Part shown: piece by piece, positions 1-46,391 of the stretch
Layout of the letters: the number at the start of each line of letters is the position of its first letter
Numbering within the stretch: the stretch's first letter is position 1
Source of the DNA: a virus
IMG/VR virus record: IMGVR_UViG_3300042991_000725
Span: 1-59,631 of that record
Length of the DNA stretch: 59,631 bases
Direction: 5' to 3' (one strand)
Made by a program: the position numbers and the translations under genes
The notes under the pieces: model-generated
Told to the model about the DNA's origin: nothing
Databases searched by the model: none
Seen by the model: the letters and a program-made list of their open reading frames with translations, nothing else

Positions 1-342
1 GGTTATGACGCAGCAAAAACAGCCGCGCAAGCTGGCGACGCAATGACGCTTATTGCAGGTTATGACGCAGCAAAAACAGCCGCGCAAGCTGGCGACGCAA
101 TGACGCTTATTGCAGGTTATGACGCAGCAAAAACAGCCGCGCAAGCTGGCGACGCAATGACGCTTATTGCAGGTTATGACGCAGCAAAAACAGCCGCGCA
201 AGCTGGCGACGCAATGACGCTTATTGCGGGTTATGACGCAGCAAAAACAGCCGCGCAAGCTGGCGACGCAATGACGCTTACCGTAGGTTATGACGCAGCA
301 AAAACAGCCTCGCAAGCTGGCGACGAAATGGACTTGGTAGAT
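1..342 (+). repeat. 57-bp in-frame tandem repeat, five copies plus one degenerate
   Basis: Units begin at 1, 58, 115, 172, 229 and 286, exactly 57 bases (19 codons) apart. The first five differ by very few bases (for example a/g in the codon before GGT at the fifth). The sixth has substitutions (TVG for IAG, S for A, E for A) and leads into unique sequence. Near identity at silent positions means recent duplication or gene-conversion-like homogenisation. The array continues upstream beyond the window, so the copy number is unknown and could be collapsed in assembly. Confidence 0.95.
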
Positions 343-11289: not shown

Positions 11290-11303
11290 GATAAGACCAC
11301 AAA

Positions 11304-29888: not shown

Positions 29889-30433
29889 CACCATTACAGA
29901 AGATAGAATCGGGTATTGTGGATGGCAATATGTTTCTTGTAGCAGAAGGGTACTCCGATTTGACCGGGGATAAAATTGAAGTCAGGGATACAATGACCAC
30001 ATCTGATAACAGCGCTTTTAAGCAAATTCTTTCTGTTATAAACGACTATAATGGCGGAAAGCTTATACAATTGACTATCGGAAGTGCCCCAGGGAACCAA
30101 GATACAGAAGGCATTAAACCTCCAGCGAAGCGTGGTCGTCCACCTAAGAACAAGGCTATAACTGCTGTTGCGTTGAACGAAACTGCTTCAAATGCAAATA
30201 GCGGCATTGTTGTAGCGCAAGATCAACCTGCGCCAGTTGCTAACAACGACAAGCCCAAGACTGTAGGTGATGTTTTGGATAAGCTCGACTTTAAGGGAGT
30301 GTCTAGCACGGAGCCACGTCCGCCTCCACGATACCCAAAGACCCAATGCAACATTTGCGAACAGATGTTTGAAAACAAATATAGCTCTGCGAGTTGCCCT
30401 TCTTGTCTCCAGGGTAGGGGGAAGAGGTCATGA
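29885..30433 (+). CDS. AT-hook / zinc-ribbon protein before helicase
   Basis: 182 aa. N-terminal 70 residues are beta-alpha; then an AT-hook-like KRGRPPKNK (about 83-91), a Pro/Ala/Asn-rich linker, and a C-terminal ribbon CNICEQMFENKYSSASCPSC. The order DNA-binding hook, linker, ribbon suggests a DNA-bound accessory. Translationally coupled to the helicase gene (ATGA), so perhaps a loader or regulator for it; inference only. Confidence 0.55.
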   Translation: MTPLQKIESGIVDGNMFLVAEGYSDLTGDKIEVRDTMTTSDNSAFKQILSVINDYNGGKLIQLTIGSAPGNQDTEGIKPPAKRGRPPKNKAITAVALNETASNANSGIVVAQDQPAPVANNDKPKTVGDVLDKLDFKGVSSTEPRPPPRYPKTQCNICEQMFENKYSSASCPSCLQGRGKRS

Positions 30434-31962: not shown

Positions 31963-32107
31963 ATCTAAGCAGTGCAAAATGTTTAAGTATTACGGGTTTT
32001 TATTGTCTAACGAACTTGACAATTCAAAAATAGCAGAGTTGTTGGCTACTCGTGAAATAATAGACGGTGACATCAAAGATATAGATGCGGAACTTTTGAA
32101 AAGATAA
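31904..32107 (+). CDS. Small helical protein between helicase and primase
   Basis: 67 aa from ATG 31904 with AAGGAG upstream, overlapping the end of the helicase gene by 59 bases. Helical, basic first half (LKKLKSAKSKQCKMFKYYG), acidic end (IIDGDIKDIDAELL). Too small to place; likely a replication accessory by position. Confidence 0.55.
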   Translation: MKTLPIDLSEASLKKLKSAKSKQCKMFKYYGFLLSNELDNSKIAELLATREIIDGDIKDIDAELLKR

Positions 32108-32110
32108 AAG

Positions 32111-33193
32111 ATGGTTATGGTTGACAATAGTCGCACAAAACGGCTTATTGGATATGCCACAGACAATATAACCGTTGTTATGGATTCTTTGGGCATAGAC
32201 TATGCAGATCGTGGAACGTATTATAATAGCAGTTGTTATGTGCATGGCGGCGATAATGGAACCGCCTTTAGTTGGTCTAAGGATTTTGGGTGTTGGAAAT
32301 GTTTTACGCACGGGTGCGATGATGAATTCGGGCATAACGTTGTTGGTCTTGTTGCCGGCGTTAATAAAGCGGGAAGAGATTCGGCTATTGGGTTTTTATA
32401 CAAATTGTTTTCTGACGAATCGGGGGAGTTGTCTGTACCTAAAGATTATGTCGGCATTAAAAGAGACAGGGCATTTTGTCAAACTAATCTTTTTTTAAAT
32501 GTAGAAGACTTGAATTCTTTGACACATTCTATCTATTTTGAACATCGTGGGTTTCATAGTGATGTTTTGGCCAAATACAGAGTGGGCGAATGTCGGGCTG
32601 GATGGAAAGGCGGACTCAATGGGACTACGAAAACTGCTAACGGCGAAGATTGGCATGGGCTATACAGACCTAGGGCTGTTATTCCTATATTTGATATTGA
32701 TAATAATTTTGTTGGATGGAATGCGCGTACATTAGGAGGGGAAAAAACAAAGTGGCTCCCTCCTCCTGGATTTAAGCGCAACTTGAATTTATTCAATATT
32801 AATTATGCAAAGGATGCGATTAAGGAAACTGGGATAGCGATACTATGCGAGGGTTGTCTCGATGTGCTCAAATTGGTCCAAAATGGTTTTGCAAATGTCG
32901 TTGGTCTTTTTGGTGTATCTATGTCTGAGGCACAGCGCAACTTGCTTATTAAATGTGGCGCAAATGCTATAATAGTAGCGCTTGATAATGACGAGAATAG
33001 GGCCGGGAATTTTGGTGCTGAACGAATAATGTCACGAAATTCGACCTATTTTGATGTCACGAATTTGACAAATTACTTGCCTAAAAAAGATTTTGGCGAG
33101 ATGACCGACTTTGAAACCAGGTCTTTTTATTATTATAAGATTAAACCGGCTATGGAGAAAATTGATGGAAGACAACAAGCTAAACAAATGTAG
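32111..33193 (+). CDS. dnaG: DNA primase (CHC2 zinc finger and TOPRIM)
   Basis: 360 aa. Zinc-binding CHC2 module: C42-x2-H45 and C61-x2-C64 within SCYVHGG and GCWKCFTH. The polymerase core includes RPRAVIPIFDIDNNFVGWNA, and the TOPRIM metal sites are E247 (ILCEGCLDVL) and D292/D294 (VALDNDENRAG). No C-terminal helicase-binding domain; half the length of bacterial DnaG. Makes RNA primers for the DnaE-type polymerase. ATG 32111 or ATG 32117 could be used. Confidence 0.85.
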   Translation: MVMVDNSRTKRLIGYATDNITVVMDSLGIDYADRGTYYNSSCYVHGGDNGTAFSWSKDFGCWKCFTHGCDDEFGHNVVGLVAGVNKAGRDSAIGFLYKLFSDESGELSVPKDYVGIKRDRAFCQTNLFLNVEDLNSLTHSIYFEHRGFHSDVLAKYRVGECRAGWKGGLNGTTKTANGEDWHGLYRPRAVIPIFDIDNNFVGWNARTLGGEKTKWLPPPGFKRNLNLFNINYAKDAIKETGIAILCEGCLDVLKLVQNGFANVVGLFGVSMSEAQRNLLIKCGANAIIVALDNDENRAGNFGAERIMSRNSTYFDVTNLTNYLPKKDFGEMTDFETRSFYYYKIKPAMEKIDGRQQAKQM

Positions 33194-33821
33194 GCCATTT
33201 ATTGTCGGCGTGTCTGGAAAGAAGAGGTCCGGCAAGTCAACGTTTGCTGACATGATTGTTGATGAGTGTGCTAAAAAAGATCTTTGTTGTGTCCGCATGT
33301 CATTTGCCGATATGCTCAAGGAAACTATTCAAGGCGTTTTTGGTATTAATGAAGAGTTGCTCTGGGGCGATGATGACAAGAAATCTCTTTTGTGTAATGT
33401 TGTGTGGTCTGACAATATCAAAAAGATGTTCCCAAAATATAAAAATAAACATAGCAATATGACAGTGCGTGAACTTCTTCAATTTTTAGGCACAGATGTA
33501 TTCAGATTGCTATTTGGAGAGAATGTATGGAAAGACGCTTTATTTAGAAAGGTCGCAGAAGATAGTAGTATACAGGTGATTATTCTAGACGATTGCAGAT
33601 TTAATGACGAATGCGACAAAATAATAGAACTTGAAGGAATACTCATCAGGCTTAGGCGTGGAGAGGATTCCAAGGACAGCCATGAGAGCGAAACGGCTTT
33701 GGACAATTATAATTGGAAGAATCATAGTTGTTTGGTGATTGATAAAAACGCTTCTATAGAAGAATATAAAAAGATTGCCCATAAAATAGTTGAAGATGAT
33801 ATCGAAAGGAAAGTCAAATGA
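33165..33821 (+). CDS. Deoxynucleoside monophosphate kinase-like protein
   Basis: 218 aa from ATG 33165 (GGAGA upstream); overlaps the primase gene end by 29 bases. P-loop GKKRSGKST (about 17-25), a long insertion with FADMLKETIQGVFGI, then LLQFLGTDVFRLLFGENVW, ILDDCRFNDECDKI and a C-terminal HESETALDN. This is the pattern of phage dNMP kinases that phosphorylate dNMPs from degraded host DNA for phage synthesis. Fits the nucleotide-supply genes nearby. Confidence 0.8.
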   Translation: MEDNKLNKCRPFIVGVSGKKRSGKSTFADMIVDECAKKDLCCVRMSFADMLKETIQGVFGINEELLWGDDDKKSLLCNVVWSDNIKKMFPKYKNKHSNMTVRELLQFLGTDVFRLLFGENVWKDALFRKVAEDSSIQVIILDDCRFNDECDKIIELEGILIRLRRGEDSKDSHESETALDNYNWKNHSCLVIDKNASIEEYKKIAHKIVEDDIERKVK

Positions 33822-34687
33822 AATGTGAGATGTTGTCGGCATCTAGAGCGGAGTTATTTAGGCGATGTATGTTTGGCTATTTCGTCAAGTATTATTATAA
33901 TGGTTTGGGGCGGGACGATACTACGGCGCTGGATATAGGGACTACAGTTCATGAATGTTTCGAATATATTGGCAAGCATCAAACTGATGTGGTAGATAGA
34001 GACAGTCATAAGCCGATAGTTGATGTCAACGATCTGGTCCTAGAGATTTTCCAAACAACAGAGTATTTTACAAAAAACAAATTAGATGTTAAAGATTTGC
34101 CAAACAACCACATCTATTGCGAGTGCAACACTATAGTCAATAGGTACTTAGATAGTAAGGACTGTGTGTTGTACGACGAAATCTATATAAAAGATGGGCA
34201 ACCCGTTGTGGAGCAAGAGTTTAAGTTAAAAATCGAAGGCTGTGGTCTCAACCAGCCACTGGAAATAACAGGCTTTATGGATATAGCTTTGAAGGTGAAT
34301 AGCGACACCTTGATCATAAACGATTACAAGTCAAGCAAATCTGTAATGCAGTATGATGACATAATTAACAATATACAGCTCAAGATGTACTTCGTTGCCG
34401 CAAAACATATATTCCCTGAAATCAAACACTTCATTATGAGGCTTGATTACTGTAAATTGGGCAAAAATCGTATAGTTACATTCGATAGGGATTATCCATT
34501 GGAAGTAGAATTATTCGGGATTTCCAACAGCATAAAACGCCAAACCGTATCTAATATATATAGAGAGCCGGGATGGTATTGTGACCGCATGTGCATTGGA
34601 AGGGAGCATTGTTATCAGTTGTGGAATTCATTAAAGAAATCTGGTTTGATGAGGGATGAACTCTATGGAAGAGGAACGACAGTTTAA
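33818..34687 (+). CDS. Cas4/RecB-like PD-(D/E)XK exonuclease
   Basis: 289 aa; ATGA overlap with the kinase gene. N-terminal SASRAELFRRCMFGYFVKYY (the 'S.S.l..fe.CP..' motif), GTTVHE helix, core GFMDIA with IINDYKSSK (the D and D-x-K of the PD-(D/E)XK site), and QLKMYFVAAKHIFP (the Q-x-x-x-Y motif). C-terminal Cys residues (CDRMCIGREHC) plus the N-terminal Cys could hold a 4Fe-4S cluster as in Cas4/AddB. Probable 5'-3' exonuclease for recombination or end processing, beside RecA and SSB. Confidence 0.8.
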   Translation: MKCEMLSASRAELFRRCMFGYFVKYYYNGLGRDDTTALDIGTTVHECFEYIGKHQTDVVDRDSHKPIVDVNDLVLEIFQTTEYFTKNKLDVKDLPNNHIYCECNTIVNRYLDSKDCVLYDEIYIKDGQPVVEQEFKLKIEGCGLNQPLEITGFMDIALKVNSDTLIINDYKSSKSVMQYDDIINNIQLKMYFVAAKHIFPEIKHFIMRLDYCKLGKNRIVTFDRDYPLEVELFGISNSIKRQTVSNIYREPGWYCDRMCIGREHCYQLWNSLKKSGLMRDELYGRGTTV

Positions 34688-35432
34688 ATGTAACGCTAAG
34701 CATAATTGTTGTAATTGCAAAGTTTGTGAAACTACTGTATTGGCAGGTAGAGACGGGCACCTTTACATAGACGGTGGCGGCCCTGTCTGTATTTTATGCA
34801 AGTCTTGTAGAAAGTATTATTTGAAAGACCTTGTGCAGGTGAGTAATGAAATAAAGAAGAATCTTGCGCTATTACATGTTGTTTTTGACGACGGGCTTAC
34901 CTTACGACAGCTAATGCTCGGATTTAGTCAACTGGCTGTTGATTTTAACTTCATGCATTCAAATTGTCTCACAGGGATTTTCAACAAAATGTTGTCCATC
35001 CCCAAAAATGAATATAGAACAGAGATTCAGGAAAATTGCTATATAGGTTTTGATACGGAACTTGTTGTTACTAACTTAAAGAAAACAAATACATTAGATA
35101 TTCATCGTTATGCTTATGTAAAATGTCTTGAGCGTTCTGTCGATACAATAGAAAATTATAAACTCACAGATATTATAGATATGAGAGTCCATCTTTCAAA
35201 GATTGCTCCTTTGGTATTTGAATACGATCAACTTGATGAAGACGGAATACCGATTAGAAAAGAAAAGATGAAAGTCACATTGTTGTGGAAAATGTTAGAG
35301 ATATTGAGTGCTATAAGATTTATGTTCGTTAATCTTGAATCTCCTAATGCAGATATGATGACTGAAACAATCAGGGAATATCAAAATATGGTTTTGAAGC
35401 CGCTGATTAACAGAACAATGATGATCAATTGA
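34665..35432 (+). CDS. Hypothetical protein with N-terminal zinc motif
   Basis: 255 aa from ATG 34665, where GAGGG is placed better than for ATG 34656. N-terminal 50 residues contain clustered Cys (HNCCNCKVC, and VCILCKSCRKYY), a double knuckle as in phage regulatory proteins. The rest is helical (NEIKKNLALLHVVFDDGLTL; LLWKMLEILSAIRFMFVNL) without known motif. Ends six bases before the polymerase N-terminal gene. Confidence 0.6.
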   Translation: MEEERQFKCNAKHNCCNCKVCETTVLAGRDGHLYIDGGGPVCILCKSCRKYYLKDLVQVSNEIKKNLALLHVVFDDGLTLRQLMLGFSQLAVDFNFMHSNCLTGIFNKMLSIPKNEYRTEIQENCYIGFDTELVVTNLKKTNTLDIHRYAYVKCLERSVDTIENYKLTDIIDMRVHLSKIAPLVFEYDQLDEDGIPIRKEKMKVTLLWKMLEILSAIRFMFVNLESPNADMMTETIREYQNMVLKPLINRTMMIN

Positions 35433-35438
35433 GGAACT

Positions 35439-37274
35439 ATGTCTTATATAAGTCTTCATAATCACAGCCATTACAGCATACTTGATAGCTTGATAAGAGT
35501 TGATCAACTATTGGGCATTGCAGATGAGTATAAGATGGAAGCCGTAGCAATTACAGACCACGGCAATTGTTTTGGGCATAATGAGTTTTGGAAATTGCAT
35601 ACTGATAAAAAGGGTAAATTCAAGAACGTCAAACCGATCTTTGGTTGCGAAATTTATGTTGAAGATGGTATAGACAAGTTGACGCATATGATCCTGTTAG
35701 CCAAAAACAACAATGGTCTGCAAAATCTTTACTCTATAGTCTCTGATTCAAATAGAAATTTCAAGAAAAATCCACGTACTACCATACCTATATTAAATCA
35801 GTATGGCAAAGATCTTATATGCATGTCTGCCTGCATTGGCGGCTATACAGCTCGTCCGTTTATTAAAAATGACGAAGCGGAAGGTATGCGCAGGATAGAC
35901 GAGCTATTGAATATCTTTAAGGATGATTTCTATCTGGAAGTGCAGGACGAAAACACAAAGTATTACAATAGCAACGATTACAGCGAAGATAGCATTAGGA
36001 GCTACATGAAGGAATCTACTGCTGATTTAGATAGGCAAGAGATAGAGATGCCCGAACAAGTGCTTATAAAAAAGATATATAGAGAAATTGGGAAGCGGAA
36101 GTCCATTCCTGTTGTTTGTTCGTCTGACCCCCATTATGTCAAGCCTGGGGATGCGTTGTGCCATGACATCCTCTTATGTATCCGTTCACATTCTGTCATT
36201 ACTGATGATAAGAGGACGAAAGAGAATCCAAAAGGCAGACGATTCGCTTTCCCGTGCCATAATTTTTATTTCAAAAACGAAAAATATATGTTGTCAAGAT
36301 TCACGAAAGAAGAGGTTGAGAACACGCACAGAATTGCCAAAATGTGCAATGCAACCATAGAAAAGCGCAAAACATATCCTAAATATAAATTTGTTCCAAG
36401 TGGAGAAACCTCTGTATCATACACAAAGTCTCTGCTCAACTCCGGATGGAAAAGACTGAAGATCGATTTGAAGTCTAATAAAGACGAATATAAGAAAAGA
36501 TTGCATCATGAGTTCGAAGTTTTGGCCAAGTATGACCTGTTGGACTATTTCCTTGTTCTTAAAGACATTGTCAATTTTTGTGAATCTAAGGATATCGATT
36601 CTGGACCGGGGCGCGGATCGGCCGCAGGGTCGTTGCTTTTGTACATTCTCGGCATCACTAAGGTCGATCCAATCAAACACGAATTAATGTTTGGCAGATT
36701 CTTTAATGAAGCCAGAATGAGCAAAGACGCCGGTTCTGGTCTCGATGTGGACATGGACTTTCAGCGCGACAGGCGGGACGAAGTTTTTGCTTATATTAAA
36801 GAAAGATTTGGACAAGATTGCGTCGCTCCAATTATGACAATAGGCACACTCGACTCCAAGTCTGCCGTTAAAGCTGTTGGCCGAGCCTTGGGCCTCAATT
36901 ATGATGATGTCAACAGAATAACCAAAGAATGTTTCCCAAATCATTACGAGGATTTGGCAGACGCAATAAAACAAGAAAATAAATTGCGCCAAGAATACAA
37001 GAAAAACAAAAGACTTTTTGAGCTTGCGCGTATGGTGGAGGGTAACGCCAGCAGTCGTGGCACTCATGCTTGCGGGATTATTATTAACGATAAGCCGCTT
37101 GGTCGTGAATTCCCTCTATGTTGGGATCCAGAAAAGCAGCATCTAATTTCTGGTATTGTCGGCAAAGACATTGACGGACTGGGGTTTACAAAGATTGATA
37201 TTTTAGGATTGTCTTGTCTAAGCATTATCAAAGACACCATCAAAATGATTAAGGATGATTGCCGTGGCAACTAA
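35439..37274 (+). CDS. dnaE: DNA polymerase III alpha subunit, N-terminal half (split DnaE)
   Basis: 611 aa. PHP domain first: HNH (7-9), D16, TDH (H41), E71, H83, C132 and SSDPH (D230, H232), i.e. all nine metal ligands expected of an active PHP. Palm: PGRGSAAGS (390-398), catalytic D438/D440 in LDVDMDF, GTHACGIII, and D587 in TKIDILGL, the three catalytic Asp equivalent to E. coli D401, D403 and D555. The chain stops just after that third Asp and one helix, where intact DnaE continues into the next helix and fingers. The remainder is encoded at 42611-44116. No intein motif is seen at either edge. Together the halves are about 1112 aa against about 1160 for bacterial DnaE. Confidence 0.93.
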   Translation: MSYISLHNHSHYSILDSLIRVDQLLGIADEYKMEAVAITDHGNCFGHNEFWKLHTDKKGKFKNVKPIFGCEIYVEDGIDKLTHMILLAKNNNGLQNLYSIVSDSNRNFKKNPRTTIPILNQYGKDLICMSACIGGYTARPFIKNDEAEGMRRIDELLNIFKDDFYLEVQDENTKYYNSNDYSEDSIRSYMKESTADLDRQEIEMPEQVLIKKIYREIGKRKSIPVVCSSDPHYVKPGDALCHDILLCIRSHSVITDDKRTKENPKGRRFAFPCHNFYFKNEKYMLSRFTKEEVENTHRIAKMCNATIEKRKTYPKYKFVPSGETSVSYTKSLLNSGWKRLKIDLKSNKDEYKKRLHHEFEVLAKYDLLDYFLVLKDIVNFCESKDIDSGPGRGSAAGSLLLYILGITKVDPIKHELMFGRFFNEARMSKDAGSGLDVDMDFQRDRRDEVFAYIKERFGQDCVAPIMTIGTLDSKSAVKAVGRALGLNYDDVNRITKECFPNHYEDLADAIKQENKLRQEYKKNKRLFELARMVEGNASSRGTHACGIIINDKPLGREFPLCWDPEKQHLISGIVGKDIDGLGFTKIDILGLSCLSIIKDTIKMIKDDCRGN

Positions 37275-37728
37275 TATAAAAAATCGGCCAATATCAAAAA
37301 TAAGTTGGGAGTTCTGCTGGAATGCGGCGGAAACATTGGCTGATGACATTTCCAAGATAGAACCGGACGCTACTACTATTATTGGTATTATGCGTGGTGG
37401 TATTATTTTTTCTGCCATGCTTCAATATTATTTGGGTTTTTGTGATGTTAAATCATTTGATGTAGACGATCATAATTTGGTTATTTCCACATATGGTGAC
37501 GGTTATCATGGTGGACTTGTAAGTGATGAATTTTATGGCCGCAATATTCTATTGGTTGACGATATTTCAGATACCGGGACCACATTAAATCGGGCTTCAG
37601 CTATTCTTTCACGGTACTGTACGACGATTAAAACCTGTACAATATTCATTAATAACAATACCAAGAAGTTCCCCGATTATTATTTTGGGAAAACGAATGA
37701 TTGGATTTTATATCCTTGGGAGAAATAA
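37255..37728 (+). CDS. Purine phosphoribosyltransferase (Gpt-like)
   Basis: 157 aa. IIGIMRGGIIFSAML is the PRTase loop; RNILLVDDISDTGTTL is the PRPP-binding signature; the ending DWILYPWEK is like xanthine-guanine PRTases. Transfers PRPP ribose phosphate to a free purine, making GMP/XMP/IMP. Start ATG 37255 overlaps the polymerase gene by 20 bases; GTG 37264 is an alternative. Coupled (TAATG) to a GMP-reductase-like gene, so together they could turn salvaged guanine into GMP then IMP. Sits inside the split polymerase locus. Confidence 0.82.
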   Translation: MIAVATNIKNRPISKISWEFCWNAAETLADDISKIEPDATTIIGIMRGGIIFSAMLQYYLGFCDVKSFDVDDHNLVISTYGDGYHGGLVSDEFYGRNILLVDDISDTGTTLNRASAILSRYCTTIKTCTIFINNNTKKFPDYYFGKTNDWILYPWEK

Positions 37729-38669
37729 TGGATAGAGAATTGTACTACAAGGACGTTTTACTTCTTCCTAATTACTCAATTGTAGAATCGAGAAACGACA
37801 TAAAAACAACGGTTTTTCTCGGTAGTATGACGTTTGAACTTCCGGTAGTCGCGGCGAATATGCGAAGTGTTATTTCTGAAGACCTTGCTGTTGAAATGGC
37901 TACAAAGAGATATTTCTATATTATGCACAGATTTGGTGTTGATAATATTAAGTTTTGCAGAATGATGGGAGAACGAAAGCTGTATACTTCTATTTCTGTT
38001 GGTGTCAACCAGGAAAGCAAGAGCATTATTAGTGAGCTTGCGGCCAAGAAAATTTATCCTTCTTATGTCTGCATTGACATTGCCCATGGATACGCCGTGA
38101 AGATGCGTGATATGATTGTTTTTATAAAACATGTATTGCCTAAATCATTTATTATTGCCGGAAATGTTTGTACGTCGAATGCCGTTACCGCTTTAGATGA
38201 ATGGGGGGCCGATGCAATTAAGGTGGGCACGAGTGGAGGTAGGGTATGTTCTACGAAGACCGCTACAGGATTCGCTAGACCGCAATTTTCGGCAGTATTG
38301 GAATGCTCAAAAGCAACATCAAAGCCTGTTATCGCAGATGGAGGAGTAGCTGAAATAGGAGACATAAATAAAGCTTTGTGTGCTGGCGCAAGCATGGTAA
38401 TGTGTGGGAATCTTTTTTCGTCATGTGAGGAAAGTCCGGGTGACACATTTACATTTAATGGTATTAGATACAAGTCTTTTTACGGCAGTGCGTCTGAACA
38501 TATGAGCGGCAAGAAGGAATATATCGAAGGGTTCCGTATTGATCAACCAGTAAAAGGTTCTATTTGGGATGTTTATAAACGTATTAACGACGGAGTGCGT
38601 AGTGCAGTTAGTTATGCTGGCGGCACTAATCTTGGTGTTTTTAAGAATGTGAGATGGGTAACTATTTAA
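37728..38669 (+). CDS. guaC: GMP reductase / IMP dehydrogenase-like protein
   Basis: 313 aa from ATG 37728 (overlaps the upstream stop). TIM-barrel motifs: YYKDVLLLPNYS (N-terminal 'DvlLvP..s'), PVVAANMRSV, IDIAHGYA, IIAGNVCT, VGTSGGRVCSTKTATGFARP (phosphate loop with catalytic Cys), KPVIADGGV, GNLFSSCEESPG and YGSAS. No CBS domains and short length favour GMP reductase (GMP + NADPH to IMP + NH3) over IMP dehydrogenase; the catalytic-loop sequence is GuaC-like. Gene pairing with the PRTase supports purine remodelling during infection. Confidence 0.85.
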   Translation: MDRELYYKDVLLLPNYSIVESRNDIKTTVFLGSMTFELPVVAANMRSVISEDLAVEMATKRYFYIMHRFGVDNIKFCRMMGERKLYTSISVGVNQESKSIISELAAKKIYPSYVCIDIAHGYAVKMRDMIVFIKHVLPKSFIIAGNVCTSNAVTALDEWGADAIKVGTSGGRVCSTKTATGFARPQFSAVLECSKATSKPVIADGGVAEIGDINKALCAGASMVMCGNLFSSCEESPGDTFTFNGIRYKSFYGSASEHMSGKKEYIEGFRIDQPVKGSIWDVYKRINDGVRSAVSYAGGTNLGVFKNVRWVTI

Positions 38670-38670
38670 C

Positions 38671-38883
38671 ATGACAACACTTATTATAGATAAAACTGGA
38701 AAATATGAAACTGAATATTCCACCATTCAGTCTGATGAATTTGAAGATTTTATTGGCATTTGGATGGATGATGTTATCGTTGCCGGATGCTTCCTTTATT
38801 TTATGCGGGGGTGGAGTGAATCAAGTGTTAGAGAGTATGTGAAAGAGATGAATTGGAAAATTGAAAGTGAGGTGAAGTCATGA
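38671..38883 (+). CDS. Small hypothetical protein
   Basis: 70 aa, one base after guaC. Beta start (TLIIDKTGKYE), a hydrophobic but short stretch (VIVAGCFLYFMRGW), then a charged helix (SSVREYVKEMNWKIESE). No motif recognised; overlaps the following mini-ORF (ATGA). Confidence 0.5.
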   Translation: MTTLIIDKTGKYETEYSTIQSDEFEDFIGIWMDDVIVAGCFLYFMRGWSESSVREYVKEMNWKIESEVKS

Positions 38884-38945
38884 AAGTTTATATTGTTACT
38901 AAGGGCCATTATAGTGACTTTGACAAGGGGGGAAACAATGGATGA
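38880..38945 (+). pseudogene. 21-codon mini-ORF, N-terminal fragment of a common phage protein family
   Basis: ATG overlaps the previous stop (ATGA) and the stop overlaps the next start by 8 bases. The peptide MKVYIVTKGHYSDFDKGGNN matches the usual opening of a widespread small phage protein ('MkvYivtsG.YSDyhi..'), then ends where the GGGGGG Shine-Dalgarno of the next gene has been built in. Best read as a truncated remnant kept for coupling, or a leader peptide. Confidence 0.45.
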
Positions 38946-39399
38946 TAATAAGATTTATAATTTTTTTGTAGTAGAAAAATATTTTCAAGAAAAGCGGTGG
39001 GACGTTTTAGCCATGCTTATTAAGGTGATTCTAAAAAAATTCAAGACAGAGGTCAATGTTTCCGCTTACTCTTATTTAAATCCAGAAGACAATTCTAATA
39101 GAGTTAATATAGATATAGAAACTGGCTCATTAAACAAAAGTGCCGAATACGAAGACGGCGATTCATCTGCTGGTTGTAATGGTCGTTTTGTTTTTTTTGA
39201 TTATTATATAGGACAATTGGTTTTAGTCAAAGATTCAGATGTTACTGGAGAAATAACAGAGCTTAAGCTTAACGCTATAGATAAATATTATGGTGTAACA
39301 AGTTATAAAAATACGAATGAATTCGTCGGATTTTTTAAGAAGGAAGAAATAGAGTTAATAGAGGATGATAGTGAAGATGGAGCAAGGAGCAGAAAGTGA
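38938..39399 (+). CDS. Hypothetical protein with RWDVL helix domain
   Basis: 153 aa from ATG 38938 (GGGGGG upstream). N-terminal helix FFVVEKYFQEKRWDVLAMLI is shared in pattern with residues about 20-45 of the protein at 47452-47922 (FRVNLEYIDGHRWDILSYLI), so the two are partial paralogues. The C-terminal part looks like a small beta barrel (GQLVLVKDSDVTGEI; FVGFFKKEEIELI) with an acidic end. Unknown role. Confidence 0.55.
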   Translation: MDDNKIYNFFVVEKYFQEKRWDVLAMLIKVILKKFKTEVNVSAYSYLNPEDNSNRVNIDIETGSLNKSAEYEDGDSSAGCNGRFVFFDYYIGQLVLVKDSDVTGEITELKLNAIDKYYGVTSYKNTNEFVGFFKKEEIELIEDDSEDGARSRK

Positions 39400-39911
39400 A
39401 CACTTACTTCATAGCAGATACCCATTTTGGCCACGCCAATATAATTTTGTATGAGAATAGGCCGTTCCACGATTGTTACGAAATGGACCTTGCGCTAATA
39501 AACAATTGGAACGATAAGGTTGGCCGTCTTGATAAGGTATTTTGTTTGGGCGACTTTGCCCTTTCTAATAAAGGATTTACTACTTTTGTATGCGCTAAAT
39601 TGAACGGCATAAAAAGCCTTATTATGGGCAATCATGACTGCCGATCAGCGTCTTGGTATATAGATGTTGGATTTGATGAAGTTTATAAATATCCGATTAT
39701 TTATCATGATTTTTACATTTTGTCTCACGAGCCTGTTTATTTAAATAATCACATGCCTTATGTGAACATACACGGACATTTGCATAGCAGGAAAATGGAT
39801 AATAAGAAGTATGTTAATGTGTCAGTAGAGAATGTCGAATACGCTCCTGTTGATTTTGATGCTATAAATAACACATTCAATCCTAACGTCGGGATAAACA
39901 TTGGACACTAA
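39396..39911 (+). CDS. Metallophosphoesterase (calcineurin-like)
   Basis: 171 aa, GTG start overlapping the previous stop (GTGA), with AGGAG upstream. All five calcineurin motifs are present: IADTHFGH (D-x-H), CLGDFA (G-D), MGNHD (G-N-H-D), SHEP and IHGHLHS (G-H-x-H). Acts on phosphodiesters or phosphomonoesters; phage members are often broad or 2',3'-cyclic phosphodiesterases. Located in the cassette between the polymerase halves. Size is typical. Confidence 0.85.
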   Translation: MNTYFIADTHFGHANIILYENRPFHDCYEMDLALINNWNDKVGRLDKVFCLGDFALSNKGFTTFVCAKLNGIKSLIMGNHDCRSASWYIDVGFDEVYKYPIIYHDFYILSHEPVYLNNHMPYVNIHGHLHSRKMDNKKYVNVSVENVEYAPVDFDAINNTFNPNVGINIGH

Positions 39912-40284
39912 AAACCATATTCTTGTCGATCTTGATGGCACTCTCGCTTATTACGACGGGCCGTCAGGCGGCGAAGTTGGCAGACCCATTCAATGTATGG
40001 TAGAAAGAGTGCGAAGTGTCCTAGATAACGGTGGAAATGTTAAAATCTTTACAGCTCGTGCAGCCGAAGGCGATCCTATGTATACAGAAGAAGAGAGGCA
40101 GCTGCGGTTGCAGAAAATTGAAGAATGGTGTTTAAAGACATTCGGGAAGAAGATAGAAATTACGGCGACAAAAACACAATATGCAACGGAGATTTGGGAT
40201 GACCGTGCGGTAGCTGTGGAGTCTAATACTGGAAGGATGAAATCCTTTTTTAAGGAAGATAAAAATGCAAAGGCCCGTTCTTAA
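39901..40284 (+). CDS. HAD-like phosphatase
   Basis: 127 aa, starting at TTG 39901 inside the previous gene's end. LVDLDGTLAYYD is HAD motif I (nucleophile D and general acid D in D-x-D-G-T), VKIFTARAAEGDP is motif II (T), and IWDDRAVAVE motif IV (DD). Small cap-less HADs like this occur in many phages as nucleotide or polynucleotide phosphatases. Coupled with the metallophosphoesterase and the radical SAM gene. Confidence 0.75.
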   Translation: MDTKNHILVDLDGTLAYYDGPSGGEVGRPIQCMVERVRSVLDNGGNVKIFTARAAEGDPMYTEEERQLRLQKIEEWCLKTFGKKIEITATKTQYATEIWDDRAVAVESNTGRMKSFFKEDKNAKARS

Positions 40285-41323
40285 GTTGAGAGAGATCATT
40301 TATGAAATTACCAGCTATTGTCAGAATGGCTGTGAATATTGTGGATCGAAAGAATACAGGGACATTGAAACAGACGAGAATCACATCAAGAGAATTATTG
40401 ATGCAATTGCCGACTATCCGCCAGAGGCTATAGACGTTTCTGGTGGCGACCCATTGGAAGTCTCTTATGACACACACAAATATTTAGTTGCTGAAATGAA
40501 TTCTCGTGGAGTTTGTTGCAAAATTCTCGTTAATCCGCTTTCGTTCAAACGAAACGAATACAACAACATAACCGACTTGTATAGCGTAGTAGGATGTTCT
40601 ATAAACAATGAAGCCGAATTAGCTGCTGCTGAGATGGTTAAGAAGATCGAAAAAACTATCATAACTAATTTCAATATGAGTAACATTTTTATGTTTGATG
40701 CAATATGCCAATATGTTGAGCATCGTTCTTTGGTGTGGCAAATCCAGCATACGATGTATCGTGACAAAGATAACAAGTCTGCTATTTATAATAGTGATGG
40801 AGCCATCAATTACTTGAGAGGAAAAATCGGCACGGCTATCAAATCCGGTATTCGTATTGTTGTTGCAGATAATGCAAATTGCGGATTGTGTGGTGCTGGA
40901 ACTTCATCTATAGGTATCAGGGCTAGTGGCGATATTGTTCCGTGTTTATCCATGGTGTCTTGGAACGACGAACCGTTTATTATAGGCAATGTTCTGGATT
41001 CTGGGTTGCTGTCCTTATGGCGTACAGGATTTGATAAATATAGATTCCATAGCTTTAGGTGCTGCAAGGATCATTGTGGCAATAGAACGATGGTGCCGTC
41101 GGTAGAACCTATTGAGTTTAATATTGAAAAAATACCAAACGCTAAGGAACGGGAACCTGTTACTCCGTCGTATCCACAGCCATGGATAGTCCAGCCTTAT
41201 AGAGTGCAGAGAGACCTCACGGTTTCGACATATGCTGTTTTTGATAGTAGAGATTATTATGGGAAAAATCCATCAGACTACAACCAAGACACCGGAGGCA
41301 AAAGTCATGAAGGTGAAGAATAG
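40265..41323 (+). CDS. Radical SAM enzyme with SPASM-like C-terminal domain
   Basis: 352 aa. Cluster motif CQNGCEYC (C19, C23, C26: CxxxCxxC) and VSGGDPLE (the GGE-like SAM site). A TIM-barrel-like body is followed by a Cys-rich domain (NCGLCGAGTSSIGIRASGD, VPCLSM, GNVLDSGLLSLWR, CCKDHCGN), matching SPASM/twitch auxiliary Fe-S domains. SPASM enzymes usually modify peptides or proteins, less often small molecules. A further 70-residue Pro/Tyr/Asp-rich tail (PSYPQPWIVQPYRVQ) is unusual. No precursor peptide was found beside it. A second SPASM fragment lies at 59391-59631. Confidence 0.85.
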   Translation: MQRPVLKLREIIYEITSYCQNGCEYCGSKEYRDIETDENHIKRIIDAIADYPPEAIDVSGGDPLEVSYDTHKYLVAEMNSRGVCCKILVNPLSFKRNEYNNITDLYSVVGCSINNEAELAAAEMVKKIEKTIITNFNMSNIFMFDAICQYVEHRSLVWQIQHTMYRDKDNKSAIYNSDGAINYLRGKIGTAIKSGIRIVVADNANCGLCGAGTSSIGIRASGDIVPCLSMVSWNDEPFIIGNVLDSGLLSLWRTGFDKYRFHSFRCCKDHCGNRTMVPSVEPIEFNIEKIPNAKEREPVTPSYPQPWIVQPYRVQRDLTVSTYAVFDSRDYYGKNPSDYNQDTGGKSHEGEE

Positions 41324-41654
41324 GAGTGAAAATGTCGTAGATGTTCGAATTGAATCAATCGAGTCTGCTCTCAAATATTTGGGCAATATTAAAGTACCAG
41401 AAGGCAGCAAGGCGCGAGTTGAGTATACTGCCAAGACTAATTGCAAGAAGTGTTTTGGTACTGGCAAATTTGGTATAATGCTTGACAATAATAACGAGGT
41501 TTGTTGGTGTGATTGTTTGAGAAGGGGTGCCATACAAACCATTCCGCCAGAAGTTAAGTCCGATACCGTTCCTAACGCAGATGGGTCTATTGATCTGCCG
41601 GACATCAAAACAGAGGCCGAATTAAATAAGGAGGGATTCAGTGCCAAGATATGA
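41307..41654 (+). CDS. DnaJ-type zinc-knuckle protein
   Basis: 115 aa from ATG 41307 with GGAGG upstream (the longer ORF from 41232 has none); overlaps the radical SAM gene by 17 bases. Contains CKKCFGTGKFG and VCWCDC, a CxxCxGxG-type zinc motif like the DnaJ cysteine repeat, flanked by acidic tail (about 85-115). Unknown client. Confidence 0.6.
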   Translation: MKVKNRSENVVDVRIESIESALKYLGNIKVPEGSKARVEYTAKTNCKKCFGTGKFGIMLDNNNEVCWCDCLRRGAIQTIPPEVKSDTVPNADGSIDLPDIKTEAELNKEGFSAKI

Positions 41655-41955
41655 CTATGTTTGCCCTAAATGTAACAACCGCGAAGAATATGTTCACAGC
41701 ATGAAGAAAAGGCCGAAGTTCTTATGCTCGGAGTGTAATGTTGCGATGGAGAAGCAGATAGGTATTGGGATAGCCACTAATGTAAAGAAGCATAAATTTT
41801 TTGGAGATTGGTACGAAAAGAATTTTCATAAGGATATCGCCGAAGGGACTGCGGACAAGATGAAACTTACAAAGGAACGATTGGACAAACATCGGTCGAA
41901 TGCGCATAAAATCCATAACCATAAAGAGAAGGAGATTAAATCACATGGCATTTAA
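41641..41955 (+). CDS. FmdB-type zinc-ribbon protein
   Basis: 104 aa, GTG start 41641 overlapping the previous gene. Sequence MPRYDYVCPKCNNREEYVHS, then KFLCSECNVAMEKQI, is the FmdB/CxxC-regulatory ribbon pattern (MPxYxYxCxxCG, CxxC). C-terminal half is a very basic helix (KHRSNAHKIHNHKEKEIKSH). Likely nucleic-acid binding. Confidence 0.75.
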   Translation: MPRYDYVCPKCNNREEYVHSMKKRPKFLCSECNVAMEKQIGIGIATNVKKHKFFGDWYEKNFHKDIAEGTADKMKLTKERLDKHRSNAHKIHNHKEKEIKSHGI

Positions 41956-42493
41956 GAGAACAACTACAGCGGAGGCGGCTAGATGGCAACGTGGGGACAA
42001 GATTGTATATATTGGAAAGGCTGAATATCTTTGTTCGAAGGTTGTCGATAAGGCCAATTGTCCACGTAGTGATATTGAAAACCTAAGGCAGTGCGGGACT
42101 TGCATTTATGCAGCCGATTTGAATCCAAACGCCGTTTATCATGTAGACAGTGTTGTTTTAAAAGATAATAATGACCACAACGACAATTGTTTTTGCCGTT
42201 TATGCTCTGCTCCTGTGAAAATTAAGCTTAAAGAATTCCCTAAGTTGTCTATTGAAACCATAAAGTTTAGGCACGCCGATGCGAAGGTCAGTGTCGGAGA
42301 AGTCGCTCCTGTTGTCCAGGGTAAAAAGAAGCGTGGCCGTCCTCGCAAAAACGATGTTGTTGTTAAAAGCGAAGAGTCGGTTGTTGTTATTAGCGAGAGT
42401 AAAAAAATAGTCAAGGAGGAATACAACAGGCTACTTGAAGAGCGCAAGCGGTTGGATGACCGTATTGCAGTATTGGAAGCGCAGTTGGAATAA
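41945..42493 (+). CDS. Cys-rich, AT-hook, coiled-coil protein
   Basis: 182 aa from ATG 41945 (AAGGAG upstream). N-terminal about 90 residues: short beta domain with six Cys (YLCSKVVDKANC; LRQCGTCIYAA; CFCRLC) likely chelating zinc. Then AT-hook KKRGRPRKN (about 123-131) and a C-terminal coiled coil (KEEYNRLLEERKRLDDRIAV). DNA-binding candidate. Its 3' end overlaps a further small ORF. Confidence 0.6.
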   Translation: MAFKRTTTAEAARWQRGDKIVYIGKAEYLCSKVVDKANCPRSDIENLRQCGTCIYAADLNPNAVYHVDSVVLKDNNDHNDNCFCRLCSAPVKIKLKEFPKLSIETIKFRHADAKVSVGEVAPVVQGKKKRGRPRKNDVVVKSEESVVVISESKKIVKEEYNRLLEERKRLDDRIAVLEAQLE

Positions 42494-42614
42494 ATTGAAG
42501 CGCGGCGTAGCGGCGAAAGCTGATTGGACACATCAATGCACCGAGGCCATGTGTTATGCTCTAGAAAGCGAGATTAGAGGCTTCTGCCTACGCCATTTTA
42601 AGGATAGACTATGA
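42456..42614 (+). CDS. Small zinc-motif protein bridging to the second polymerase gene
   Basis: 52 aa; ATG 42456 overlaps the end of the previous gene in another frame (a TTG at 42495 is possible). The stop overlaps the dnaE C-half start (ATGA), which it therefore couples. Sequence WKRSWNKLKRG, then HQCTEAMCYALESEIRGFCLRH: three Cys and two His spaced as a small zinc fold, ending GFCLRHFKDRL. It fills what would otherwise be a 117-base gap with protein-like codons. Confidence 0.5.
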   Translation: MTVLQYWKRSWNKLKRGVAAKADWTHQCTEAMCYALESEIRGFCLRHFKDRL

Positions 42615-44116
42615 AGGATTTTTCTGACGAAGTCATTATTAACGACCCGGAAGTGTATAAGTTGATTAGCCGTGGCGAAACTGGCCTTGTTTTCCAGTTG
42701 AATTCACCCATTGGCAAGAAGTACAGCAAATTGGTCAAGCCACAGAACATTGAAGAACTATCAATGCTTGTTGCGTTGACTCGCCCTAACGTACTGAATG
42801 CCGGATTAGATAAAGATTTTATATCGGTGCGTAATGGCGAACGTCAACCAATATATCCAGATCCAAGATTAGAAAAGATATTAGGTCAAACATATGGCAT
42901 TTCTTTGTATCAAGAACAAATTATAACATTGGGCAAAGAGGTCGCAGGATTCAGTGAAGTAGAGGCTGATTGGTTAAGACATGCTATGGGCAAAAAAGAT
43001 AGAGATGTTATGAAAAAACTACGAAGAAAGTTTTTGGAGGGTGGTATCAAAAACAAATATTCGCTTATAAGCCTTATGACTATTTGGCGCAAATACATTA
43101 AAGCTGCATCTTCGTATGTTTTCAATAAAAGTCACGCTACAGTATACGCTTACAACTCTGCGCGTACTGCATACTTCTGTGCCCATTATCCACTAGAATT
43201 TATTTGCTCCAATCTTATTCATTCTGACGGTGATTTAGAAGAAATAAAAAAGATAATCAATGTTGCCGCATCGTTTGGCATTTCAATTAAGCTGCCGAAC
43301 ATAAAGAAATCCGGCATAGACTTTACAATTGATAAAACCGCCAATTCTATTTTGTTTGGATTGAAGCACATTAAGGGTATAGGCAAATCGGTTCTTCCCA
43401 AAATAAAGAATATTGTTAACTACGTGGGGATCGACAAGCTTTTAGTGTATGAGGCGTTTCATTCTACAATAAATAAGACTGTTATGAATGCGCTGATTTT
43501 TAGTGGGGCTTTCGATTGTTTAGACAGCAACAGGTGCCGCAATTCCAACGCATACAATTTGCTCCTTGAATTCAGTGAGCGCGAAGGAAATATTATGTTA
43601 GACATGTGGCATGACAGCTCTTCTGTACGGAGTTTGGTTAATGGATTTGTTGAGCATTGCAAGATGACGCATGACGTTAACAAAAACAGGATGGTCAAAA
43701 TTATAGAGTTACAGAATAGATTAAATGCTTTTTATGAGCTTAAGGAAAATTTCAACGAGATCATACTTAAAGAACGCGGATGTCTTGGTATTTCCTTAAC
43801 TGGCTGTGAAACAGATACTTATGATATAGACTGCAATTTGTGCCTTGATTTGAAAACAAGGGCAAATCGTGATACTATAAGGCTTTGTGTTCTTATTGAT
43901 GATGTCCGCTCTATCAAAACAAAGAAGGGCGATATGATGGCTTTTATAAGGGGGTTTGATTCATCTGGAAGCGTTGATTTCGTTTTTTTCCCACAACTAT
44001 GGGGGGAGTATAAGGATAGATTCGTAAAGGGGTCAATATTATACATTACTGGTACTGTAGAAAAGTCTCGTGGCGAAAATGTTATAGCCAATAAGATTAG
44101 GATAGTTAAAAAATAA
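42611..44116 (+). CDS. dnaE: DNA polymerase III alpha subunit, C-terminal half (split DnaE)
   Basis: 501 aa. It resumes exactly where the 35439-37274 protein stops: DPEVYKLISRGETGLVFQL (DnaE 'dpktyell..GdT.gvFQlES'), then SMLVALTRPNVLNAG, YGISLYQEQII, ADWLRHAMGKKDRDVMKKL (fingers), NKSHATVYAYNSARTAYFCA, a HhH (GLKHIKGIGKSVLPKI) and an OB-fold (LIDDVRSIKTKKGDMMAFIR; GSILYITGTVEKS). The tau-binding C-terminal domain is lacking. It carries no catalytic Asp, so it must associate with the first half. Start by ATGA coupling to a 52-aa ORF. Confidence 0.92.
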   Translation: MKDFSDEVIINDPEVYKLISRGETGLVFQLNSPIGKKYSKLVKPQNIEELSMLVALTRPNVLNAGLDKDFISVRNGERQPIYPDPRLEKILGQTYGISLYQEQIITLGKEVAGFSEVEADWLRHAMGKKDRDVMKKLRRKFLEGGIKNKYSLISLMTIWRKYIKAASSYVFNKSHATVYAYNSARTAYFCAHYPLEFICSNLIHSDGDLEEIKKIINVAASFGISIKLPNIKKSGIDFTIDKTANSILFGLKHIKGIGKSVLPKIKNIVNYVGIDKLLVYEAFHSTINKTVMNALIFSGAFDCLDSNRCRNSNAYNLLLEFSEREGNIMLDMWHDSSSVRSLVNGFVEHCKMTHDVNKNRMVKIIELQNRLNAFYELKENFNEIILKERGCLGISLTGCETDTYDIDCNLCLDLKTRANRDTIRLCVLIDDVRSIKTKKGDMMAFIRGFDSSGSVDFVFFPQLWGEYKDRFVKGSILYITGTVEKSRGENVIANKIRIVKK

Positions 44117-44130
44117 TTTTTACGACAGTA

Positions 44131-44157
44131 TTGCAACGCCTATTCTATCTATATAAT
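44131..44157 (+). promoter_or_regulatory. Possible sigma70-like promoter upstream of SSB
   Basis: In the 77-base gap before the SSB gene, TTGCAA (44131-44136) and a perfect TATAAT (44152-44157) are 15 bases apart, shorter than the optimal 17. TATCTATATA overlapping the -10 also occurs at 24234. A new transcript starting near 44164 would have a short leader before AAGGAGG. Confidence 0.4.
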
Positions 44158-44193
44158 TGTGGAGTTAACATCACTGTCAAGGAGGATTTTCGC

Positions 44194-44538
44194 ATGGGCG
44201 ATGAAAATGCTATTATTCTGAAGGGGCGAGTGGCTGGCGGTGTTTTTTTGAATGACGCTAATGGCACTTCGGTTATCAATTTTATCTTGGTCACAAATAG
44301 AATCTATAAGAAGAAGAATGGGGAGAAGGTAGATGAGGCTACCTATGTGCCCATTGAAGCCTGGGGAGTGGTTGCGGAAGATGCCCATAAGGTTCTTGAG
44401 AATAAAAAAACGGTGCTCATTAATGGCAGGCTTAAGCAGGACCGCTGGAAGGATAAAGAGGGCAACGATAGGTCGAAACTCAAGGTCGTTATAGAGAACT
44501 TCAAGGTTATCGATAGGGTCTATCATGAAGGTGAATGA
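44194..44538 (+). CDS. ssb: Single-stranded DNA-binding protein
   Basis: 114 aa from ATG 44194 (AAGGAGG upstream; the longer ORF from 44131 is rejected). OB-fold pattern of bacterial/phage SSB: AIILKGRVAGGVFL, SVINFILVTNRIY, TYVPIEAWGVVAEDAHKVLE, TVLINGRLKQDRWKDKEGN, KLKVVIENFKVID. Lacks the acidic C-terminal tail typical of cellular SSB. Coats ssDNA for the phage polymerase and recombinase. Confidence 0.88.
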   Translation: MGDENAIILKGRVAGGVFLNDANGTSVINFILVTNRIYKKKNGEKVDEATYVPIEAWGVVAEDAHKVLENKKTVLINGRLKQDRWKDKEGNDRSKLKVVIENFKVIDRVYHEGE

Positions 44539-44728
44539 AAACTTTATAACTCTAAATGGAGCAGAAGGGCAGATGGCCCTGAATATTTCATGTATAGAAG
44601 CTATTATCGCTAAGTCTCCTTCGTCCGCAGTCATTGTCTCTACAAGTGGCAATAAGGTGATGTTGCAGATGTCGTTTGCCGAAGTAATGGCGGCTATGAC
44701 ACAAGGAGATGGTTGTGGGAAAAAATAG
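44525..44728 (+). CDS. Small protein coupled to SSB
   Basis: 67 aa, starting inside the SSB gene end and ending inside the glycosyltransferase gene start. Beta-alpha pattern (ITLNGAEGQMALNISCIEAII; SSAVIVSTSGNKVMLQMS; FAEVMAAMTQG). Reminiscent of small phage proteins of unknown function with a single beta sheet. Confidence 0.55.
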   Translation: MKVNENFITLNGAEGQMALNISCIEAIIAKSPSSAVIVSTSGNKVMLQMSFAEVMAAMTQGDGCGKK

Positions 44729-46391
44729 AAAAATAAAGCTGTTGTTTAGCAACGAGGGGAGCTGTCTTGAAACCGGCTTTTCTAAAATTGGCCGGGAAAT
44801 GATGTATATTCTTCATGATATGGGTTGTTATGATATTGTTGAACTTGCAAGTTATGTCGGTGAAGGTGATAAGCGTATTGAAAAATTCCCTTGGCGTATT
44901 TATCCAGTAGTGCCCCCCAGAGGGACATCTGCCTACAAACAGTACGAAAGGCAGTTTAAAGTTGCACAATTTGGCGCATTGCGTTTTAATAGCGTTATGG
45001 TCATTGAAAAAGTGGATTTTTGCGTGGACATTCGTGATTTTTGGATGTTGAACCATATTTTCCAGAGTCCGTATCGTAATAATTTCCGATTTGTTATTCG
45101 TCCTCCAGTAGATGGTGAGCCGCAAGATGAAGAATGGATACATTGTTTTAAGACTGCGGATGTTGTTTTTTCGCATAGTCGGTGGGGTAAGAAAATTCTT
45201 GAATCAGAAGGGGTTAAGGTAGATGGCATTCTCTATGGGTGTATCAATTCTGATAATTTTAAACCCTTGAATAAAATAGAGATGCGTAAGAAATACAAGC
45301 TTCAGCCAGATCTTAAGATTATTCTTAGCGTTATGCGCAATCAAGCCAGAAAACAGTTTCCAGAGTTGCTCCAAGCATATGCGTTGTTTAAGAAGAAGTA
45401 TCCAGAAACTTTTGAGCACTCTGTACTTTTGCTCCACACTTCATATCCGGATACAATGGGATGGGATCTGCCCCAACTTTTGCGAAGATATGGTCTTGTT
45501 TCCGATGTTATTTTTACCAATTATTGTTTGGAGTGTGGCAAGCCTTCAGTAACATTTCTGCAAAAGGATTATCACAGGAATAATAAAAATATTTGTTTCC
45601 ATTGTGATAAATACAGCGCAGTCTTCCCAAGTACAAATAGGGGAGTAAGCGAACAGGAATTGAACGAGATATATAATCTGGCAGATCTTTATGTTCAATT
45701 GGCTGGTGGAGAGGGGTCTGGCCTTCCAGCTATAGAAGCTAAAGCCACAGGCCTTCCCGTTATTTGTTGTCCATACAGTGCTATGGAAGATCACGTGCTC
45801 GATCCGGGCGGTATCGGGTTGAAGATTAAAGGCTACTATGTTGACTGGCCACAAATGATCAATAGGGTCTTGCCAGACATTGAAGACTTGGCAGCCAAAT
45901 TTGATTGGTTCTTTAAGTTGTCCAAAGAAGAGCGCATTGCAGTAGGCAAGCCGGGTATTGATTTTGTAAAGAACAACTATAATTACAAGTTGATCACTCA
46001 ACGATTCCACGAAGTGCTCCAGAACACTCCATTGCTTGATAGATCACAGACTTGGGATGCACCAATGCTTGATTTATCGGCATATAAGAGTGTGAATGAA
46101 AAAGACGAACGGCCAGATATAGACAATTATTCATTTGTCGAGTACTTATACAAGCGTATATTTAATCGTCAGCCCGAAAAGTATGGAATGATGAAAGAGT
46201 ATTTGGACGCACTCAATACCGGCAAAATGAAACGGTCTCAAATAGCACTTCAGTTAAAGCATGTTGCTGAACTTATGTGTAAATTGGAAATGCTTAGGGT
46301 GGGTGCTATTAAGAGTCCATCGAATATTAATAAGGACTTAGACGATATCGCTGAAATAGCCCAAAAACACAAGGTTATTAAAATTTTATAG
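44715..46391 (+). CDS. GT4-family glycosyltransferase with zinc insertion and DUF4214-like tail
   Basis: 558 aa from GTG 44715, six bases after AAGGAG; ATG 44709 directly abuts that site. GT-B fold: N-terminal Rossmann half (KIKLLFSNEGSCLETGFSKI), ADVVFSHSRWGKKIL, ILYGCINSDNFKP, KIILSVMRNQARKQFPELLQ, and the GT4 nucleotide site GGEGSGLPAIEAKATGLPVI. Within the C-terminal lobe is an insertion CLECGKPSVTF with CFHC, a zinc knuckle not usual in GT4. After residue about 465 a segment (FVEYLYKRIFNRQPEKYGM; TGKMKRSQIALQL) resembles DUF4214. Transfers a sugar from a nucleotide donor; the phage dehydrogenase may supply a uronic donor. Target unknown. Confidence 0.82.
   Translation: MGKNRKIKLLFSNEGSCLETGFSKIGREMMYILHDMGCYDIVELASYVGEGDKRIEKFPWRIYPVVPPRGTSAYKQYERQFKVAQFGALRFNSVMVIEKVDFCVDIRDFWMLNHIFQSPYRNNFRFVIRPPVDGEPQDEEWIHCFKTADVVFSHSRWGKKILESEGVKVDGILYGCINSDNFKPLNKIEMRKKYKLQPDLKIILSVMRNQARKQFPELLQAYALFKKKYPETFEHSVLLLHTSYPDTMGWDLPQLLRRYGLVSDVIFTNYCLECGKPSVTFLQKDYHRNNKNICFHCDKYSAVFPSTNRGVSEQELNEIYNLADLYVQLAGGEGSGLPAIEAKATGLPVICCPYSAMEDHVLDPGGIGLKIKGYYVDWPQMINRVLPDIEDLAAKFDWFFKLSKEERIAVGKPGIDFVKNNYNYKLITQRFHEVLQNTPLLDRSQTWDAPMLDLSAYKSVNEKDERPDIDNYSFVEYLYKRIFNRQPEKYGMMKEYLDALNTGKMKRSQIALQLKHVAELMCKLEMLRVGAIKSPSNINKDLDDIAEIAQKHKVIKIL

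Follow-up and report, generated by a model that had tools for sequence, protein, structure and literature searches.

Two phage genes that probably encode a single DnaE-type replicase divided at the palm-fingers linker

C-family replicases are generally regarded as single chains. In cyanobacteria, two genes encode DnaE, and a split intein unites their products in a single chain; PolC of Firmicutes, another C-family enzyme, carries a DnaQ-type exonuclease domain inserted in its PHP domain. Among phages, the group 2.2 jumbo phages encode a minimal split Pol III alpha in two distant genes, without other Pol III domains and alongside a family B polymerase (Iyer et al. 2021, PMC7824862), and the OM43 phages MEP401 and MEP402 have a family A polymerase split by a small gene, an arrangement that is frequent in related metagenomic genomes and for which the authors suspected an intron (PMC10580990). 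Here, we describe two genes, dnaE-N and dnaE-C, located in bases 1-59631 of the 154,404-base IMG/VR virus record IMGVR_UViG_3300042991_000725 (this 59,631-nucleotide stretch is hereafter called the window). By far the likeliest reading, with a probability of roughly 0.87, is that they encode one DnaE-type replicase functioning as two chains.

The first gene, dnaE-N (35439..37274, + strand; 611 aa), encodes the PHP domain and palm of a C-family (DnaE-type) polymerase, with matches to PF02811 (PHP, 1.9e-40) and PF07733 (5.2e-67). The second, dnaE-C (42611..44116, + strand; 501 aa), supplies the same polymerase with its fingers, helix-hairpin-helix (HhH), and OB domains, with matches to PF17657 (fingers, 3.7e-40), PF14579 (HHH), and PF01336 (OB); it terminates after the OB domain, and no C-terminal domain was detected. 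Both halves match the phage polymerase family phrog_405, dnaE-N at positions 42-617 and dnaE-C at 626-1065, in keeping with a preliminary description of this DNA, which had reported two DnaE genes ~5.3 kb apart. Each gene has its own Shine-Dalgarno-like sequence upstream (GAGG for dnaE-N, and AAGGA ahead of the ATG of dnaE-C). The PHP domain, three-Asp palm, fingers, HhH, and OB domains follow the order found in bacterial DnaE (E. coli 2HNH/5FKV, Taq 2HPI/3E0D, and M. tuberculosis 7PU7), but the bacterial enzyme is one continuous chain, whereas in the window these parts are spread over two. The catalytic Asp residues of dnaE-N are D438, D440, and D587, and they are retained in every row that aligns there. 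Domain matches thus agree with the earlier claim that all catalytic Asp residues lie on one chain and the fingers and OB domain on the other.

As in the cyanobacterial case, the catalytic subunit comes from two genes, but the cyanobacterial break lies at another site and the window has no intein parts. Likewise, the minimal split Pol III alpha of jumbo phages is encoded in two distant genes, but the window differs in having the PHP, HhH, and OB domains, in its break falling after all three Asp residues, and in that no family B polymerase was found (PMC7824862). The preliminary description had set this split apart from known intein and mobile-nuclease cases; the window indeed has neither intein nor intron, but division of a phage Pol III alpha, in the minimal form, had previously been reported.

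Aligned to E. coli DnaE, dnaE-N reaches residue 573 and dnaE-C begins at 590; aligned to Taq DnaE, the corresponding residues are 637 and 646. Only ~15 linker residues therefore lie between the halves, and these are mostly covered by the 6 and 8 residues at the two edges that remain unaligned. Compared with intact phage DnaE, the break falls between the helix that follows the third Asp and the segment 'xxDDxxTWxLxxxGxTxGVFQ', and in the AlphaFold2 model of dnaE-N a single helix (592-610) follows D587, just as had been noticed from the letters alone. Judging from these alignments, the DnaE break is in a linker (E. coli ~573-590), and the earlier statement that no domain is lost stands.

To collect relatives, we combined alignment-based IMG/VR scans, genome_contigs, and GenBank loci, which yielded 291 related loci with the window included (individual loci are cited below by our L numbers). 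Alignment queries were required, as single-protein scans of viral contigs gave few relatives. In 146 of these loci, the halves are separate co-oriented open reading frames (ORFs) broken at the palm-fingers linker (124 distinct pairs of N and C proteins), and in another 127, both halves lie in one ORF, 9 of which are broken additionally, either in the fingers or closer to the N terminus; since the loci were chosen by similarity and some are two views of one contig, these counts are not population frequencies. The split count includes the window and leaves out L188, whose DnaE is interrupted elsewhere by an intein. The gap between the halves ranges from 0.6 to 5.3 kb and is typically ~0.85 kb, with the window's being the longest. 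What had been put forward from a single case is thus real, but it is a trait of a lineage. Given the E-values and the 145 relatives with an identical break, the split is not derived by chance.

In the relatives, purifying selection on the two halves is strong: the ratio of nonsynonymous to synonymous substitution rates (dN/dS) was 0.01-0.10 for the N half, the C half, and an exonuclease gene in the gap (see below) wherever dS was measurable (12 pairs of split relatives). In addition, pairwise distances of the N and C halves are correlated to the same degree whether the enzyme is split or encoded in one ORF (r 0.887 for each; residual s.d. 0.041 and 0.047, respectively), which indicates that the halves are inherited and evolve as a unit. 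AlphaFold2 predicted confident folds for each half alone, with a predicted local distance difference test score (pLDDT) of 92.7 and a predicted template modelling score (pTM) of 0.92 for dnaE-N, and 95.1 and 0.90, respectively, for dnaE-C. The query template modelling (TM) scores of the dnaE-N model to Taq, E. coli, and M. tuberculosis DnaE were 0.80-0.85, and that of the dnaE-C model to M. tuberculosis DnaE1 was 0.74.

Clustering and a profile revealed a gene of ~230 aa in the gap of 141 of the 146 split loci; in one more, L088, its sequence runs into the ORF of the C half. Its product matches PF00929 (RNase_T, 6e-13) and carries the motifs FDFET, GYNIxxFD, and NAHDALxDVxDTA, by which it is classed as a DnaQ-type DEDDh exonuclease. 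The profile of this gap exonuclease found 0 matches in the 127 one-ORF loci. The exonuclease of the main split lineage is most likely a proofreading subunit. The split loci without it are the window, L118, L288, and L073. By eye, the gap of L118 holds dUTPase-like and thymidine-kinase-like genes, among others, and that of L288 holds glycosyltransferase-like and methyltransferase-like genes; in L073, the gap contains a uracil-DNA-glycosylase-like gene. Such varied contents suggest that the gap is a tolerated site for ordinary phage genes. In the OM43 phages, by comparison, the split polymerase belongs to family A, and its gap gene is of unknown kind and no proofreader (PMC10580990). The arrangement also differs from that of PolC, whose exonuclease is a PHP insert, whereas the phage exonuclease is a separate gene in the palm-fingers gap; in the window, moreover, the PHP match is one unbroken stretch (residues 6-170), and no PF00929 match, and hence no DnaQ-type exonuclease, was detected in the record.

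Nine metal ligands of the PHP domain have been defined, and their loss accompanies the presence of a separate exonuclease (PMC3666897). The state of the PHP site in our loci is what that work would lead one to expect. More specifically, the window's PHP domain has all nine ligands (HHDHEHCDH), as in the self-proofreading Taq/Tth-type polymerases, and the set is also complete in the other exonuclease-less split enzymes, whereas it is complete in only 62 of 134 exonuclease-linked ones. The window's lineage thus probably proofreads by its PHP domain, and the pattern fits the idea that some members of the main lineage have handed proofreading over to the exonuclease, although the correlation is bound to the tree. 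A further feature of the split C halves is a Cys-rich N-terminal extension (YxCGCxF) before the fingers, present in 77 of 147 (e.g., L198, L194, and L218). It accompanies an intact PHP site in the partner chain (67 of 76) and is largely missing where that site is degraded (5 of 62), an association that phylogeny may explain.

No close named relative was found among 50,697 GenBank phages (INPHARED), where the best match to a main-lineage query had ~34% identity over most of the polymerase N half. The gap exonuclease reached at best 28% identity there, in six Bacteroides phages. A description of this split-DnaE lineage was not found in the openly readable literature, the scope of the search being journals outside subscription. 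Among split phage replicases, the lineage, its break site, and the placement of an exonuclease in the gap therefore appear to make up a new variant.

We propose that chain 1 (PHP and palm) would supply the three catalytic Asp residues and chain 2 (fingers, HhH, and OB) the parts that bind template and deoxynucleoside triphosphates. Each would be translated from its own ribosome-binding site within one co-oriented gene run and fold independently, and the chains would then dock without a covalent bond, using the contact between palm and fingers that ordinary DnaE forms within a single chain. That a two-chain polymerase is required, as the preliminary description held, follows from the division of domains together with the lack of an intein or intron. 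The gene may have been cut in place at an open linker, inside a replication cassette that is also present in unsplit relatives, after which ordinary phage genes could have occupied the space so opened. For the main split lineage, that gene is the DEDDh exonuclease, most likely the proofreader; in the window's lineage, which has no gap exonuclease, a complete PHP metal site would probably do this work.

A fuller scenario can be put forward only tentatively, as we give it a little less than an even chance. Here, widespread uncultivated phages would use a permanently two-subunit Pol III alpha that was cut repeatedly at one linker; the main branch would then have captured a DEDDh proofreader (giving a core of three cistrons in the order alpha-N, epsilon-like, alpha-C), with the PHP nuclease decaying in part of it, and the window would represent the state that lacks the exonuclease and in which the PHP domain does the proofreading. 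A two-chain phage replicase, with its active site divided between subunits and the gene of a proofreader lodged in the gap, would offer natural material for the study of palm-fingers cooperation. The lineage also lets one ask whether an exonuclease and a PHP nuclease can stand in for each other, and how an essential gene gets cut and stays cut. For annotation, either half by itself resembles a truncated or broken polymerase gene.

Regarding the history of the split, a tree of 36 rows places the window, a deep branch, in a fully supported clade (100/100) that comprises 18 enzymes in the split state and 6 in one ORF. The unsplit relatives nest within the clade of split ones, so the breakpoint is not strictly fixed by lineage, and the tree suggests either repeated cutting of the linker or re-fusion of some genes. 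The surrounding cassette has a conserved order, DnaB - primase - kinase - PD-(D/E)XK nuclease - DnaE - (SSB) - glycosyltransferase, and the window's linker break likewise lies within it. DnaB is present in 126 of 146 split loci, 8 of 8 one-ORF loci of the same clade, and 2 of 119 other one-ORF loci, and the glycosyltransferase follows the polymerase in 126 of 146, 8 of 8, and 1 of 119, respectively. In the unsplit L117, SSB stands directly after the whole dnaE, just as it stands directly after dnaE-C in the window; this placement, and the cassette common to the unsplit relatives, suggest that the gene was split (or healed) where it stands. A single ancient fission, followed by re-fusion in L052/L117 and in L257/L278/L284/L209, in place of two or three independent fissions at one linker, would concern the origin alone and is compatible with a two-chain replicase. 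We consider it nearly as probable as its converse: it would be the simpler history if re-fusion is easy, and a clade of the window and the main lineage, with L118 left out, was not rejected by the approximately unbiased test (p-AU 0.19). Against it, the split state requires three changes on the tree, at least two of which are forced by well-supported branches, a single clade of all split rows was marginally rejected (p-AU 0.043), and the gaps of the window, L118, and L288 are wholly dissimilar.

A reading that would deny the window a working enzyme is that the polymerase is decaying while the phage uses the host replicase, the halves being remnants or otherwise employed. Several observations do weigh against a functional two-chain replicase in the window. 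The RPGx fingers motif, near-invariant elsewhere, is RPNV in its C half (dnaE-C residues 58-61, window 42782-42793); the window has no close relative (best ~36% identity), and selection could be measured in the sister lineage only; and the record is classed as 'linear' and possibly incomplete, which would leave room for a further polymerase. The window's end branch is also long (1.24-1.45), as decay would predict. Nevertheless, we regard decay as highly unlikely: all catalytic Asp residues and all nine PHP ligands are retained, both ORFs are open and have ribosome-binding sites, the relatives' halves show the low dN/dS given above, and this is the sole polymerase detected, beside a helicase, a primase, and SSB. 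Indeed, the whole record has one match each to PF07733 and PF17657, and neither a family B (PF00136) nor a family A (PF00476) polymerase was found in it, nor the contiguous dnaE elsewhere that would have spoken against the preliminary description. Similarly, 15 long split records (103-244 kb) have one dnaE each and no family A or B polymerase. Tandem repeats in the coding frame (MTLIAGYDAAKTAAQAGDA... and LRGCFCCVITRNKRHCVAS...) were noted at both ends of the window's record (window 43-501 and record 153630-154364); they may explain why the assembly stops there.

Even less probable is that the halves are rejoined after expression, by split-intein protein trans-splicing or by RNA trans-splicing, to give a single working chain. 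Cyanobacterial DnaE is produced in this way by a split intein (PMC3919608), and the DnaE of L188 is interrupted by an intein. In the window, by contrast, the N half has just 6 residues beyond homology and the C half 8, too few for intein pieces, and no Rfam intron was found there, which bears out the earlier remark that the edges carry neither an intein nor an intron. Intein-like ends were seen in no inspected split locus except L188, which is broken elsewhere. Nor is the break at the FNKSH region, the site of the cyanobacterial split. A programmed frameshift linking the halves was ruled out by the 5.3-kb gap. In L188 (9974-14211; IMGVR_UViG_3300005403_000005), intein sequence interrupts the fingers; it includes an HNH-like region, and a break in frame separates two ORFs that overlap. 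This intein, which lies elsewhere than the palm-fingers linker, is itself split or broken. An intein-like insert was also noted at FNK|C...HN|SH in the intact DnaE ORF of a Candidatus Paceibacterota contig (L015, within 7873-11502). Least plausible of all is an assembly artefact joining two loci or two phages in the window: the record is metagenomic, but the gene run is unbroken and overlapping with even G+C through the split-dnaE region, the cassette order on both sides matches L117, L118, and L257, and the same break recurs in 145 other loci.

The spacer (37275-42610; 5,336 nt) holds about ten co-oriented genes that for the most part overlap, and no exonuclease was found among them with PF00929 or the lineage-specific profile. 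The preliminary description had counted about eleven genes and concluded that the spacer is not one selfish gene; it is indeed multi-gene, but as such a special case, since the relatives mostly have the one exonuclease gene. The spacer genes identified, all on the + strand, encode a phosphoribosyltransferase (37255..37728; PF00156), whose gene shares 20 nt with the end of dnaE-N, a member of the IMPDH/GMP reductase family (37731..38669; by domain match), a calcineurin-like phosphoesterase (39396..39911; phrog_547), a small protein of phrog_1238 (39901..40284; labelled phosphoheptose isomerase, and HAD-like in the preliminary description), a radical SAM/SPASM protein (40265..41323), and a zinc-ribbon protein (41641..41955; PF09723, slightly under the cut-off). 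The L118 gap holds a short Zn-ribbon protein resembling the last of these. Homologues of the IMPDH/GMP-reductase gene sit elsewhere, outside dnaE, in the unsplit L257 and L284, and blastp found no spacer cargo common to the window and the main split clade.

The upstream replication cassette (30430..35432, + strand) encodes DnaB helicase, a Toprim primase, a dNMP-kinase-like protein, a PD-(D/E)XK nuclease, and a last gene of unknown function; all except the last are common to split and unsplit relatives. SSB (44131..44538, + strand; PF00436) adjoins the 3' end of dnaE-C, and a glycosyltransferase-like gene (44709..46391, + strand) lies downstream of the polymerase, as it also does in relatives. 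A second SSB-like gene is found in the record at 112653-113168. Two small genes of unknown function flank dnaE-C (window 38893-39399 and 47452-47922) and look like paralogues by eye (RWDVLAMLIK / RWDILSYLIK). The uracil-DNA-glycosylase-like gene in the dnaE gap of L073 (9231-9878) has a homologue in the window at 26593-27390 (38% identity), 8 kb upstream of dnaE-N, and this difference in placement suggests that genes move into and out of the gap.

DnaE genes are also broken at other places, namely, near profile position 285-295 in L283, L289, and L294, within the PHP domain in L086, L109, L111, L123, and L238, and in the fingers in L143, which suggests that fission of phage DnaE is wider than the palm-fingers linker.

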